A DNA stretch of 64,000 bases from a bacterium (GTDB taxonomy: Bacteria; Bacteroidota; Bacteroidia; B-17B0; Aurantibacillaceae), in the NCBI GenBank assembly GCA_029945625.1, contig JAQSCW010000002.1, forward strand, positions 1 through 64,000, in the 5' to 3' direction. How positions within the stretch are numbered: position 1 is the stretch's first letter; each line of letters starts with the position of its first letter. Below are positions 16,594-56,387 of this stretch, in pieces. Below the pieces are notes generated by a model. That model saw nothing but the letters and a program-made list of their open reading frames with translations. It did no database searches and was not told the origin of the DNA. The position numbers and the translations under genes are program-made.

Positions 16594-17391
16594 CTGAAAT
16601 CAATTGCTATAATCGCCGCCCTGGTGCTTAGTGTGCTTTTTAGTGCTTGTGATAATTATAATCGCCTGCTAAAAAGTACCGACTATGAACTAAAGCTCAA
16701 ACGCGCAAAAGAGTATTACGAAAAAAAACAATACATCAAATCCTCACAGTTGTACGAAGAACTTATTCCGGTTGTGAAAGGAACAGACAGGGCAGAAGAG
16801 GTATATTATTATTATACCTGGAGCGAGTATAATTTGGGCGATTATTTGTTAAGTCAATACCATTTCAAAAACTTTACCAGGCAGTTTCCAACGAGTAAAC
16901 ATGTGGAAGAGTGTTTTTACATGAATGCGTATTGTTATTTTTTGAATTCGCCCAATTACAAGCTTGACCAAACCTATACTAAAAATGCGATAAAAGAATT
17001 CCAATCTTTTGTTGATCTGTATCCCGAGAGCATCAAATTAGACACCTGCAATTTGCTGGTGGACCAGCTAAACAGTAAACTTGAGAGGAAAGACTATGAG
17101 ATCACCAAACAGTACTTTAAGTTGAGTGATTGGAAAGCTGCCATTGTGACCACTCGAAATTTCATCAAAGAATACCCTTCAAGCTTGTACAATGAAGAAA
17201 TGTTTTATATGTTAATCGACGCCTATTATTCACTGGCCGTAAACAGTATCTATTCGAAAAAAGAGGAGCGTTTGAACGGGGCCATTGAGAATTATGTAAA
17301 ATTTCTCGATTTATACCCCAAAAGTTCGTATCTTAGCCGCGCAGAAAACATTTATAATAGCAGTAAACGACTAAAAGCAAACCTTAAATAA
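16594..17391 (+). CDS. bamD: Outer membrane protein assembly factor BamD
   Basis: A lipoprotein of about 265 residues. It belongs to the BAM complex, which inserts beta-barrels into the outer membrane. Tetratricopeptide-like helices run through it, with YYEKKQYIKSSQLYEELI, YHFKNFTRQFPTSKHVEE and AIVTTRNFIKEYPSS. The lipobox is LFSAC. The start is odd. Between the in-frame stop at 16558 and the lipobox there is no ATG or TTG. CTG at 16594 gives a proper signal peptide (KSIAIIAALVLSVLFSAC after the initiator), whereas GTG at 16624 leaves only seven residues before the cysteine. It is one base from rpoZ, as is usual in Bacteroidota. Confidence 0.85.
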   Translation: MKSIAIIAALVLSVLFSACDNYNRLLKSTDYELKLKRAKEYYEKKQYIKSSQLYEELIPVVKGTDRAEEVYYYYTWSEYNLGDYLLSQYHFKNFTRQFPTSKHVEECFYMNAYCYFLNSPNYKLDQTYTKNAIKEFQSFVDLYPESIKLDTCNLLVDQLNSKLERKDYEITKQYFKLSDWKAAIVTTRNFIKEYPSSLYNEEMFYMLIDAYYSLAVNSIYSKKEERLNGAIENYVKFLDLYPKSSYLSRAENIYNSSKRLKANLK

Positions 17392-52667: not shown

Positions 52668-52967
52668 TTAATTCATAATGAGACCCGGCAAAGATATTGG
52701 AGCTGAGTCGTGAAATGCGAGTTCATGAATTTTAACCTTTACTTCCTGAATAATGGGCAGCGAGCTTAACAAAGTTCTGACCTCGCGAAGGCCATCTGCC
52801 TGAAATACCGCCCAAACGTTCTTTCGATCCATATCCAGGGCATAGCTCAGGAGGATTCTCTTTTCAAGTAATTCCTGAATGCGTTGCCTATGTTTCGGAA
52901 TCAGCGCATAAAAACCGGGTCCAATCACCTCCGGCAAAATGAAATGCACTAGAAAAACATCTTTCAT
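52668..52967 (-). CDS. Small ferredoxin-like-fold protein, muconolactone-isomerase-like
   Basis: A 99-residue protein with the layout of dimeric alpha/beta-barrel proteins: FLVHFILPEVIGPGF, a helix HRQRIQELLEKRILLSYAL, DRKNVWAVFQADGLREVRTLLSSLPII and a final strand VKVKIHELAFH. This matches muconolactone-delta-isomerase-like or YciI-like families in general shape. No catabolic genes for muconolactone lie nearby, so an isomerase role is not supported. Function unknown. Confidence 0.55.
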   Translation of the reverse strand: MKDVFLVHFILPEVIGPGFYALIPKHRQRIQELLEKRILLSYALDMDRKNVWAVFQADGLREVRTLLSSLPIIQEVKVKIHELAFHDSAPISLPGLIMN

Positions 52968-53075: not shown

Positions 53076-54506
53076 TTAACTAAATGGTATCAATCTGATA
53101 CCCATGCTGAAGGGGTATAATTCGGGGCCTTTGCCAGGCTGGAAAAGGGAAGTTACACTATATTCACCAAAGACGGTCCAACCTCTGTATCCAAGATTCA
53201 CATGCGCTTTGGCAGCGAACGGAGTAAGATTGTATCCGTCTTTTCTAACCTTAGTGTACTCGTCCTTTTCGTCCTCCAAAACCTGCTTTGTACGAGAAGC
53301 GATGAGGAACTGACCCACCACACCCACAGCAATATGAAATGTTTTGAGGGGATCATTACTGGTATTAAACTCTAGTAAGAGAGGAACCTGAATATAGGTG
53401 CAACGTAATTTATTTTTATGATAAGCCAATTTAGAATCGGTATCAATGGTGCCCCAAGTATATGACGTATCGGGATTTAGAGTGGTTTTGTTGGAGAACT
53501 CATATAAGTGATAATCAAATCCAAAGCCGGTCACAATTTTCATTTTATTACTTATCAAATTAAATTGCTTTTCAAAAAGATTGAATTGATAATTGAAACT
53601 TTTTGAATAGTTTAGATCCATAAACTCTGTTGATTTAGGCATGGTCATACTTCCGGTATTTGTCAAATACCCGTTTACGCCCATCGAAAACCCGGTCCAG
53701 TGTTTAAATTTGCGCTCCACGTCTATTTCGTGTTCTTCCATTCCAAACCCATCAATCACAATTATCTTTTTATGTTTTAAGTTATAATAGGTAGTATCGT
53801 TTTCGGTTCCTTCTTCGGATTGCGCATGTTCTTTGATCCGTGAAATGCTGGCTGAATTACCCGATTCGGCTGCCACTTCACGCGGCTCGCCCTTTATTTT
53901 AATATCGCTTGCGCCGGTGGCATTCGCCTTTAAGGTTTCGGTCACGTACACTTTTGCTGTTGCAGCACCGGTGGAGGTGACGTGCGCATTTTTCACTACC
54001 AGACTATAGGCTTTCAGCGAAGACGCGCCAGTTACCTCTGTGTTGAGTTCGTTTGCCGTCCCCTTCAATACCACAGTGCTGGCCCCCGATTGTTGATTGG
54101 TGATCTTTTTTGCATCTATTTTTAAATTCACATTGGCCGAACCTGATACATTAATGTCCATGCTGTCGACTTTAATACTATTCATCGATCTAAAATCAGT
54201 GGCACCACTTGCTTCCAGCGAAATAAGATGATTATTTTTCACATATACCGATATTGGCCCGGTAAATTTTCCTTTGTTTGAAATCATTAACGTAGAATTT
54301 TCAACATGTGTTTCCACGTGTTCCAATTCACTCGATTTGGCTTTTACGCTCACGTCCAGCGTATCGGAATGGGTGTAGAAAACACTTACCGATCCGGCGA
54401 CCTCTATCTTTTCGAAAGGACTTACCGTGCGGGTTTGAACTTGTTGCGCATTGCACCTGATTAGTAAAAAAAGAAGGGAAAACGAGAGAAGGTTTAATTT
54501 ATTCAT
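53076..54506 (-). CDS. GIN-domain (DUF2807) protein with C-terminal outer-membrane beta-barrel
   Basis: A 476-residue protein. After a signal peptide (LLFLLIRCNAQ) comes a head-GIN (DUF2807) domain, about 25-215, recognised by VSPFEKIEVAGSVSVFY and repeated right-handed strands with VSGSANVNLKIDAKKITNQQ and GASTVVLKGTANELNTEVTG. Residues about 265-476 look like a PorT-like outer-membrane beta-barrel (FSMGVNGYLTN and TFHIAVGVVGQFLIASR, then a final strand MGIRLIPFS). It is preceded by an ECF-type promoter that is also present upstream of the sigma gene, so it is the likely target of that sigma factor. Function unknown; an envelope role is likely. Confidence 0.85.
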   Translation of the reverse strand: MNKLNLLSFSLLFLLIRCNAQQVQTRTVSPFEKIEVAGSVSVFYTHSDTLDVSVKAKSSELEHVETHVENSTLMISNKGKFTGPISVYVKNNHLISLEASGATDFRSMNSIKVDSMDINVSGSANVNLKIDAKKITNQQSGASTVVLKGTANELNTEVTGASSLKAYSLVVKNAHVTSTGAATAKVYVTETLKANATGASDIKIKGEPREVAAESGNSASISRIKEHAQSEEGTENDTTYYNLKHKKIIVIDGFGMEEHEIDVERKFKHWTGFSMGVNGYLTNTGSMTMPKSTEFMDLNYSKSFNYQFNLFEKQFNLISNKMKIVTGFGFDYHLYEFSNKTTLNPDTSYTWGTIDTDSKLAYHKNKLRCTYIQVPLLLEFNTSNDPLKTFHIAVGVVGQFLIASRTKQVLEDEKDEYTKVRKDGYNLTPFAAKAHVNLGYRGWTVFGEYSVTSLFQPGKGPELYPFSMGIRLIPFS

Positions 54507-54531: not shown

Positions 54532-54560
54532 TAAGACGAAGTAGATTCCTTAAAAGTTAC
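54532..54560 (-). promoter_or_regulatory. ECF-type promoter of the GIN/beta-barrel gene
   Basis: On the minus strand, -35 GTAAC (54560-54556), a 17-base spacer and -10 CGTCTTA (54538-54532). It lies 26 bases before the ATG at 54506. The flanking bases GTAACTTTT and ACTTCGTCTTA are identical to those of the promoter upstream of the sigma gene (56360-56387). Confidence 0.75.
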
Positions 54561-54607
54561 AGACTTCTATTTATTTTTTTGATGAGATAATTTCAACTCT
54601 TGTCGCA

Positions 54608-55867
54608 TCAACGTTTTTCAACACTAAAATTATTAATTGCCAAACGGAATTTTTGATGGGGGGCTTCAACCCCCTCTACCGATTTAAATCCAAATTTGTT
54701 CACCTGTTGCGCAAATACAACTGCTTTTTGCCAGAAACCTCTTGCGTTAAGTGGTTTCTCCTCTGCATCCATTCTACTATCTTCATCTTCTTCGAGGGCC
54801 AATAAATAAAATTGAGTTGTGTTTATACTATCACCAACTTGAACTTTCTGTTTAGCAGGAGAAAGTGCGGTCAACGTTTTTTCAACTTGGGGTTGAGGCA
54901 CTAACATAAGATTATTCTGCACTTCATTTTCTGCAGTATGCGTTGTTGCAATCTGAGGAGTTTCATCTCCAACCGAGGTATTTAAAACGTTTTCTATCGG
55001 ATGAACAGTGCTGCTCTTCGGAAGCTGGCTTGCACCTGCCCTTTGCTGCGTTGCAGCCTTGGAAATTAATTTTTTACTTTTTGTAATGACCACCTCCGTT
55101 TTTGAAGGGGCTGTCAAAATATTGTCCGCTTTAGTAACGCCTGCTTGTGCAAGTTTTACAGGTTCTTTTCCCCCGTAGTAGGATACAAGAAATGAAAAAC
55201 TGAGGAGCAATAGAATTGCGGCAGCCATCCTCATCAGGTTTTTGGTGCTGTATAGCGCGAACACCCTGTTCTTTTTCTTCAGCTGCTCTTTATTTGGGAA
55301 TACGATCGTGAGGTCCGCCTTCTGAAAGGTCTTTAATACAAGGTCCAATTCTTTTCTGAGTGCTGCACCTTGCGTTAATTCCTTCTCAAAATCAAGCCTC
55401 TCGCCGGCAGTCATGCCATTTTCAGAAAAAGCAACAAGTTTAAAAGCCTCAGTTCTAACTAAATCATTTTCTGTTTTGGCCAGTATCGACTTGCTATCAA
55501 AACTAATTTGTTCATCAGGAACAAGAATTGTTTTCTTATATAACTCCCATTCAGCTGACAATAGCGGCTCTGAATTGATTTTTTGTTCCATCGCCAATTT
55601 TTCTTGAGCACTGAGATTGTTTTCGAGGTAATTCAACAGGGATTCATTGTATTGATTAAATTCGGTTTTTTTTAGGCTTTCTTTGGCTTCGTATGGCAAC
55701 GATTCTGCCGAAAAATAAGGAAGCTGCAATTCATCCGGATCGATCTCGAGTTCGGGGTGTGAGATTATAAAAGATCTAAGTTCCTGCGCCTCTTCTGCAC
55801 TCAGAGCGCCTTCGCTGTAATCGAGCAGAAAACCCTCATAATTATGTAGGTTTATAGAAGTCATCAT
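54608..55867 (-). CDS. Anti-sigma-factor-like single-pass membrane protein
   Basis: A 419-residue protein encoded directly after an ECF sigma gene (four-base overlap). The N-terminal 190 residues contain three related modules starting at about residues 10, 72 and 140: FLLDYSEGALSAEEAQELR, SLLNYLENNLSAQEKLAME and KLVAFSENGMTAGERLDFE. One membrane helix follows at about 211-228 (MRMAAAILLLLSFSFLVSYY), then a long Thr/Gln/Pro-rich periplasmic part. There are no cysteines at all, so the HxxxCxxC zinc-binding anti-sigma motif is absent. It presumably sequesters the sigma factor. The signal it senses is unknown. Confidence 0.82.
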   Translation of the reverse strand: MMTSINLHNYEGFLLDYSEGALSAEEAQELRSFIISHPELEIDPDELQLPYFSAESLPYEAKESLKKTEFNQYNESLLNYLENNLSAQEKLAMEQKINSEPLLSAEWELYKKTILVPDEQISFDSKSILAKTENDLVRTEAFKLVAFSENGMTAGERLDFEKELTQGAALRKELDLVLKTFQKADLTIVFPNKEQLKKKNRVFALYSTKNLMRMAAAILLLLSFSFLVSYYGGKEPVKLAQAGVTKADNILTAPSKTEVVITKSKKLISKAATQQRAGASQLPKSSTVHPIENVLNTSVGDETPQIATTHTAENEVQNNLMLVPQPQVEKTLTALSPAKQKVQVGDSINTTQFYLLALEEDEDSRMDAEEKPLNARGFWQKAVVFAQQVNKFGFKSVEGVEAPHQKFRLAINNFSVEKR

Positions 55868-56349
55868 ATAACGGTTTCCACCTTACCAATATAGTTCTTT
55901 AAAAATGTTCGGGCTCTGAAAATATACACTTTCACCTGACTCTCTGATAGGCCGGTGATCTCTCCAATTTCAGCATAATCATACCCCTCGTAGTCCCGCA
56001 GTAACACTACTGTTTTCTGAATTTCAGGCAATTGTTCCAATCCCCTGTTAAGCACCTCTTTCAAGTCTGAATACTGCCTTGAATGACTATGATGTTTAAG
56101 ATCCACCTCACTGAGAGCACTATTTTTTGATGATTTTCGGGTATAATCAATCAGGGTATGATAAGCCGTAGTGAATAGGTAAGTCTTACTTTTTGCGGCG
56201 TCAATCGTGTCCACTTTGCGCCACATTTTTTCAAAAGCATCCTGAACTATGTCTTTGGCCACATCTCTATCTCTAATGTGTTTCAGCACAAACCGATACA
56301 CACCATCGGCGTGTGCATCCACACATGAATTATAATCAGATAGTTCCAA
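55864..56349 (-). CDS. ECF-family RNA polymerase sigma factor
   Basis: A 161-residue sigma factor with region 2 (about 10-75: VDAHADGVYRFVLKHIRDRDVAKDIVQDAFEKMW) and region 4 (about 105-155: LEQLPEIQKTVVLLRDYEGYDYAEIGEITGLSESQVKVYIFRARTFLK). The start is TTG (56349-56347); no ATG fits. An ECF promoter sits immediately upstream (56360-56387), so it probably autoregulates. Its stop overlaps the start of the anti-sigma-like gene by four bases. The shared promoter places it in control of at least the GIN/barrel gene at 53076. Confidence 0.93.
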   Translation of the reverse strand: MELSDYNSCVDAHADGVYRFVLKHIRDRDVAKDIVQDAFEKMWRKVDTIDAAKSKTYLFTTAYHTLIDYTRKSSKNSALSEVDLKHHSHSRQYSDLKEVLNRGLEQLPEIQKTVVLLRDYEGYDYAEIGEITGLSESQVKVYIFRARTFLKNYIGKVETVI

Positions 56350-56359
56350 ATTCTAAGTA

Positions 56360-56387
56360 TAAGACGAAGTTACGCACGAAAAGTTAC
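56360..56387 (-). promoter_or_regulatory. ECF-type promoter of the sigma/anti-sigma operon
   Basis: On the minus strand, -35 GTAAC (56387-56383), a 16-base spacer and -10 CGTCTTA (56366-56360). The TTG start codon at 56349 lies only 10 bases beyond, so the leader is minimal. Confidence 0.75.

Follow-up and report, generated by a model that had tools for sequence, protein, structure and literature searches.

The window, i.e., the whole 64-kb stretch of DNA that was analysed, carries on its minus strand, read from position 56387 down to position 53076, a promoter-like site, a sigma factor gene, a gene for a 419-residue protein, a second promoter-like site and a gene for a 476-residue protein. 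The features discussed below are as follows:

56360–56387, minus strand: promoter-like site of the sigma/anti-sigma operon, GTAACTTTTCGTGCGTAACTTCGTCTTA, an exact motif match (-35 box GTAAC at 56383–56387, 16-base spacer, -10 box CGTCTTA at 56360–56366)
55864–56349, minus strand: ECF sigma factor, 161 residues, with a TTG start codon 10 nt past the -10 box (Pfam Sigma70_r2 and Sigma70_r4_2)
54608–55867, minus strand: putative cognate anti-sigma factor, 419 residues, overlapping the sigma gene by 4 bases (AlphaFold2 model, hydrophobicity, RslA match)
54532–54560, minus strand: promoter-like site of the GIN/barrel gene, GTAACTTTTAAGGAATCTACTTCGTCTTA, an exact motif match (-35 box GTAAC at 54556–54560, 17-base spacer, -10 box CGTCTTA at 54532–54538)
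53076–54506, minus strand: putative target gene, 476 residues, with a DUF2807 GIN head and an outer-membrane barrel (Pfam DUF2807 and OMP_b-brl_2; AlphaFold2)
16597–17385, plus strand: bamD (YfiO), without the motif upstream

Sigma70_r2 covers residues 10–74 and Sigma70_r4_2 residues 101–150 of the 161-residue sigma factor, and the Pfam scan detected no region 3 family, in agreement with the ECF arrangement of regions 2 and 4 without region 3. The best NCBIfam match of the sigma factor is NF058625 (GFO_1088/PG0214), but its score of 110.2 bits is below the curated cut-off of 130, and so membership was rejected in favour of a neighbouring family. The available parts of the literature gave no ECF group number for it. 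In 28 of 29 genus loci, only 9–23 nt separate CGTC from the sigma start codon, which by the nearest-start rule is mostly TTG (22 of the 29); the sigma transcript would thus have almost no leader, and its start codon would be a weak one.

The AlphaFold2 model of the putative anti-sigma factor (mean pLDDT 68) has three N-terminal helical repeats, one membrane helix (residues 208–231), about 145 low-confidence residues modelled as disordered, and a C-terminus made of a helix (residues 378–391) and three short strands. A hydrophobic segment is present in all 55 aligned members (best 19-residue mean, 1.24–3.22) and is followed by 169–264 residues, and many of the C-termini of these members are alike by eye. 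The closest structural neighbour of residues 70–122 is the anti-sigma factor RslA (Z = 6.0, rmsd 3.4, 53 residues), a resemblance between helical pieces in the model that may be just a common arrangement. Foldseek with the anti-sigma model gave nothing at E ≤ 0.001 and RslA weakly. No family match was obtained for the window protein in Pfam and NCBIfam, zf-HC2 gave weak matches only, in three of the 55 members, and the anti-sigma and barrel profiles matched none of the sequences of solved structures. In the model of the 476-residue protein (mean pLDDT 87.5), the GIN head spans residues 30–208, and the barrel, with eight long strands, spans residues 272–474. A 99-residue protein with a sub-threshold muconolactone-isomerase match is encoded at 52668–52967 of the minus strand and lies 3' of the barrel gene in several genomes of the genus; its gene may be on the barrel-gene transcript.

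Motif sites in the window and in its genome

Both pairs of boxes had been reported, in a reading of the sequence alone, at the positions, on the strand and with the spacers listed above, and they were recovered there exactly. They are the only two exact matches to GTAACN14-20CGTCTTA in the 64-kb window; 100 dinucleotide shuffles of the window gave a mean of 0.02 matches, and none of the shuffles contained two. The ACTT found 5' of CGTCTTA in both window sites is absent from the orthologous sites compared. As judged from their sequence, both sites would act as ECF-type promoters.

The genome from which the window derives (4.12 Mb) contains three exact matches to the same pattern, two of them the window sites, versus eight for the reversed-pattern control. 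The reversed control was also higher than the forward count in other pattern searches of this genome (87 versus 22, 20 versus 4 and 15 versus 10), and so the number of matches alone is no proof. Since they lie above the forward counts there, reversed-pattern counts were set aside as a sole statistic; we think that the reversed pattern overstates the background, its words being commoner. At the level of sequence, the case is carried by location, spacer and conservation, not by raw counts.

The matrix used for scoring sites was derived from 56 sigma-locus sites of the genus, which include both window sites and leave out the two further sites described next. When two mismatches to GTAACTTT-N13/14-CGTCTTA were allowed, 14 sites were found in the own genome. 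The sigma-operon and barrel-gene sites score 29.0 each, a site on contig C50 scores 26.2, and a site upstream of uppS-bamA scores 20.8; the next score is 15.7. Ten others, with scores of 10.8–15.7 and several of them inside genes, were not taken as targets. The genome-wide motif search proposed in the sequence-only reading thus separates four sites clearly by score, whereas the bare count does not rise above the control.

The site on contig C50 (C50:67481–67509; L003 1501–1529) is the third exact match and an orphan. No open reading frame of at least 90 codons was found to start in the 600 bp downstream of it, and the next one on the same strand begins about 590 bp after the site. The 66-base stretch past the site folds no better than its shuffles (z = 0.44).

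Conservation of the motif with the sigma factor

The sigma ortholog search covered 60 genomes, 37 of which belong to the genus, and an ortholog of the window sigma was found at E ≤ 1e-49 in 30 of these 37, both counts including the own genome. Three further genomes (G060–G062) have the sigma and the motif, the sigma there being recognised via the motif sites. GTAAC-N16/17-CGTC precedes the sigma gene in 29 of the 30 genus loci, the window included, G023 being the exception. It also precedes the GIN/barrel gene in all 25 genus loci that have this gene, again with the window included; the other five stretches lack the gene. The motif is kept in all six genomes in which the barrel gene lies apart from the anti-sigma gene (G006, G018, G020, G034, G007 and G029), and it stands in front of the barrel gene in all three in which that gene is elsewhere in the genome (G014, G015 and G036).

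All 30 genus genomes whose sigma was found independently contain the exact pattern with a spacer of 16–17 (33 genomes with sigma when G060–G062 are included), and none of the seven without the sigma does. These seven genomes, which are smaller and three of which are 60–73% complete, retain two to seven other sigma matches each. Because loss of the locus removes two sites, the co-occurrence of motif and sigma is partly trivial; for unlinked sites, none was found in the sigma-lacking genomes versus 6.95 expected (P ~0.001, with sites treated as independent). Across 40 genus genomes, 110 pattern matches were counted versus 52 for the reversed control, and part of the 110 may be background.

A wider scan with one genome per species gave 80 loci, the best 80 among at least 575 relatives; Marinifilum, Labilibaculum, Carboxylicivirga, Alkaliflexus, Sunxiuqinia and Mariniphaga are represented. 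This set is not independent of the genus set, at least nine of the 80 loci being shared. GTAAC-N15-18-CGTC occurs within 150 bp before the sigma gene in 75 of these Bacteroidota loci, where the remaining sequence of the loci would predict 0.09, and is absent from this position in the other five. The spacer is 17 bases in 43 loci and 16 bases in 32; 15 and 18 were allowed and never found. A comparison of the upstream regions of orthologous sigma genes, suggested as a check when the motif was first noticed, agrees with it, both here and in the 29 of 30 genus loci.

Within the wider set, the motif lies within 200 bp before the GIN/barrel-family gene in 34 of the 36 loci having a recognisable gene. 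Another 42 loci have the anti-sigma gene without a GIN/barrel gene, and no second motif was found within 3.5 kb in 40 of them; in L180 and L212, a second motif and the anti-sigma gene are present and the contigs end before the next gene. The motif precedes the barrel gene in three of five cases from other sampled families, and both sites occur in loci of isolated relatives such as Marinifilum, Labilibaculum and Alkaliflexus (L209, L215, L224 and L251). When 30 barrel-family proteins were scanned, the window protein included, OMP_b-brl_2 was detected in 27 and DUF2807 in eight. By these domain assignments, the conserved target is an outer-membrane barrel, and the GIN head is a feature of certain members only. 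The sequence-only reading, which named a GIN-domain barrel as the target, is upheld for the barrel, but not for the GIN head as its conserved part.

Among 30 loci of sigma factors found with the NF058625 profile, 16 have GTAAC/CGTC upstream: 8 of the 17 that score over the cut-off and 8 of the 13 that score below it. Since some related ECF sigma factors share these boxes, crosstalk is possible, and another ECF sigma factor could read the sites.

The BAM link and other genes behind the motif

In the own genome, the site upstream of uppS-bamA has one mismatch to the motif. The gene after uppS is bamA, as identified by its POTRA domains and its best NCBIfam match, although the protein is a partial piece scoring 266 against a cut-off of 297. 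A SAM riboswitch (RF00162, 61 bits) lies near the own uppS locus (L292 2165–2340, plus strand). A strong uppS-bamA site is present in seven of 30 tested genus genomes, with scores of 20.8–29.4 in G030, G017, G001, G011, G010 and the own genome (G000) and an exact match in G062, and a weaker one in G019 (10.1). The motif precedes bamD and a SurA-like gene in one of 30 genomes each, in both cases G030 (scores of 20.9 and 28.5); this genome has ten exact sites, three of which are on uppS-bamA, bamD and the SurA-like gene. The high scores of these uppS, bamD and SurA-like sites were not reached in any of 200 shuffles per window, and the remaining tested windows score at most 3.5. The own bamD and surA lack the motif (scores of -7.3 and -3.9). 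As G030 is the only one of 30 genomes with such sites, bamD and SurA-like genes were rejected as general targets. On this sequence evidence, control of BAM genes looks real but patchy.

Of the exact sites that the genus has outside its sigma loci, 52 were examined: 49 sit 0–158 bp before an open reading frame on the same strand, and 45 are outside long open frames. The commonest cluster of genes behind them encodes CarboxypepD_reg-like proteins, with 14 sites in 13 genomes (e.g., L147, L136, L141, L162, L164, L166 and L171; four members were domain-checked, one of them having DUF5686). GIN proteins account for ten sites, some of which belong to displaced barrel genes and two of which are also counted in the sigma loci. 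Further clusters are uppS-bamA (five exact sites), beta-lactamase-family hydrolases (five), ABC transporters (four) and small exported-looking proteins (three), and the single cases include genes for a DUF4270 protein, for a DUF2268 protease and, both in G030, for BamD and the SurA-like rotamase. Domain identities were assigned by HMM and checked on representatives.

In three loci, L390 (G001), L401 (G012) and L410 (G061), the sigma motif lies within about 110 bases 3' of the pspC stop codon and is followed by a stretch of 70–80 bases with a strong terminator hairpin at its end; TTTTTCATGT and the hairpin loop GCTGCAAATT are invariant in all three. With an RNA model built from them, 16 of 40 genus genomes have matches at E ≤ 1e-3 (22 in all), near pspC in 15 of the 16; the own genome has no clear match, and the C50 locus has none. 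The stem covaries, six of its 12 pairs being changed on both sides (0/500 shuffles), in an alignment that was fitted to the model and in which two of 26 rows are opposite-strand echoes. The sigma motif directly precedes the element in three of 27 rows, those of L390, L401 and L410 only, and five other rows have the motif and a hydrolase gene between pspC and the element. The U-run and CAU of the element could pair with AUGAAAAA at the starts of exported proteins. The element may be a small RNA or merely a conserved pspC terminator.

A candidate outer-membrane stress circuit and its known relatives

Taken together, the sequence evidence makes it very likely that the locus encodes an autoregulated, sigma-E-like ECF circuit for outer-membrane assembly stress. 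The role in envelope stress is suggested by the identity of the target. A membrane-anchored anti-sigma factor made from the same operon would hold the ECF sigma factor inactive, and a disturbance of the outer membrane would cause it to free the sigma factor, perhaps through proteolysis; recognition of the motif by this sigma factor, its binding by the anti-sigma factor, the signal and the release are all deduced steps. The freed sigma factor would transcribe from GTAAC-N16/17-CGTC(TTA) promoters, among them that of its own operon, which would amount to positive autoregulation. It would also switch on the adjacent gene for the outer-membrane barrel, here with a GIN head, to give more barrel, and in the own genome probably uppS-bamA to give more BamA, the outer-membrane protein insertase. 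The earlier proposal of an autoregulated ECF sigma factor with one adjacent target agrees with the motif before the sigma gene (75/80) and before the barrel gene (25/25), but the word "one" does not hold, given the uppS-bamA site here and further sites in relatives.

The same boxes could be real ECF promoters read by one or more paralogous ECF sigma factors, the adjacent sigma being merely one of the targets. The upstream boxes of NF058625-profile sigma factors and the eight sigma matches in the own genome (E ≤ 1e-3, window sigma included) fit this explanation, but the motif tracks the window sigma across the 37 genus genomes even though the seven sigma-less ones keep other sigma matches, and it stands before window-sigma orthologs throughout most of the wider set, so that such a reading is improbable. 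A circuit limited to the sigma operon and the barrel gene, in which the sites at uppS-bamA, bamD and the SurA-like gene arose by coincidence or are weak, is a possibility that we consider rather unlikely. It would account for the finding of bamD and SurA-like sites in a single genome and of uppS-bamA sites in seven of 30, the own one with a mismatch; against it, the scores are bimodal, with the high sites at 20.8–29.4, G019 at 10.1 and the rest at 3.5 or below, the shuffles do not match the high scores, and three of the ten exact sites of G030 fall on just these genes.

A reading of the two boxes as the operator of a DNA-binding regulator, instead of as a promoter, is highly improbable. A pair of conserved blocks that keep a nearly constant distance might in principle represent two half-sites, but the blocks are dissimilar, the spacer is either 16 or 17, and the sigma start keeps its short distance from CGTC. 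That the two window sites are alike by chance has a vanishingly small probability: the own-genome counts, which do not exceed the reversed-pattern control, would leave room for it, but conservation in loci of many species refutes it. Random occurrence of the motif throughout the genome, the objection foreseen in the sequence-only reading, is not what is seen, since the four own sites stand apart and the seven sigma-less genomes have no exact match.

For the autoregulated stress circuit, a broader scheme can be put forward tentatively, and we regard it as doubtful: an independently arisen, Bacteroidota-wide counterpart of sigma-E, in which an anti-sigma factor with a disordered tether as long as the periplasm and a small C-terminal tip gauges barrel assembly, a separate sigma-controlled barrel is its partner in the outer membrane, as in a split Dma, and BAM is among the outputs, joined in some species by the short RNA found behind pspC. 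Contact between the anti-sigma tip and the barrel is a guess. An autoregulated ECF stress sigma factor is an already known kind of system; what sets this one apart is a putative anti-sigma factor that lacks a barrel, next to a barrel gene that would be under the same control, together with the motif code and the link to bamA. Neither the motif nor ECF control of bamA in Bacteroidota was found named in the available portions of the open-licence literature. The promoter code, the likely cognate sigma factor, the constant target and the bamA link are readable from sequence and bear on the largely open question of how members of Bacteroidota detect and mend faults in the assembly of the outer membrane.

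By profile, the nearest family is NF058625, the best NCBIfam match, whose members over the cut-off have GTAAC/CGTC upstream in 8 of 17 loci. The SigP motif of Porphyromonas gingivalis was rejected as an equivalent, being a different motif in the accessible text on it (PMC4800418). EcfO/Reo is alike in being an ECF pair tied to outer-membrane insult: according to the available parts of the reports, EcfO was first described in Bacteroides fragilis, and EcfO/Reo of Phocaeicola vulgatus is upregulated by the toxins BcpT or Bd-A, of which Bd-A is said to inhibit BamA (PMC9308784, PMC13114119). In the same parts, Reo differs in having a C-terminal barrel, and its regulon includes nigD genes and longer O-antigen. 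Das/Dma of Bacteroides thetaiotaomicron is alike in layout. In the available text, Dma (dual membrane-spanning anti-sigma) consists of an N-terminal domain, one membrane helix, a disordered tether and a C-terminal beta-barrel (PMC13088901); in the present system, too, a Bacteroidota ECF sigma factor goes with a putative anti-sigma factor, modelled with an N-terminal domain, a membrane helix and a disordered tether. The window anti-sigma factor is different in that it ends in a helix and three strands, the barrel being a separate gene with the same motif; membership in Dma was rejected because the model has no C-terminal beta-barrel. The literature available on Das/Dma and EcfO/Reo gave no promoter motif for either.

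The promoter boxes of E. coli sigma-E differ from GTAAC/CGTCTTA. Of the features that would mark a sigma-E-like regulon, the motif stands before the bamA-holding gene pair in the own genome, and not before bamD and surA. According to the available part of a published account, E. coli sigma-E controls BAM genes, and its outputs include SurA and the sRNAs MicA, RybB and MicL (PMC6737893). The likeness to sigma-E (RpoE)/RseA, as far as that account goes, lies in an ECF sigma factor, a membrane anti-sigma factor (here putative) in the same operon and control of BAM genes (here probable, for bamA) (PMC6737893). The systems differ in the anti-sigma factor, whose model here has repeats in tandem at the N-terminus and a long stretch of disorder, and in the control of BAM genes, which here would be patchy, the constant target being the barrel protein.
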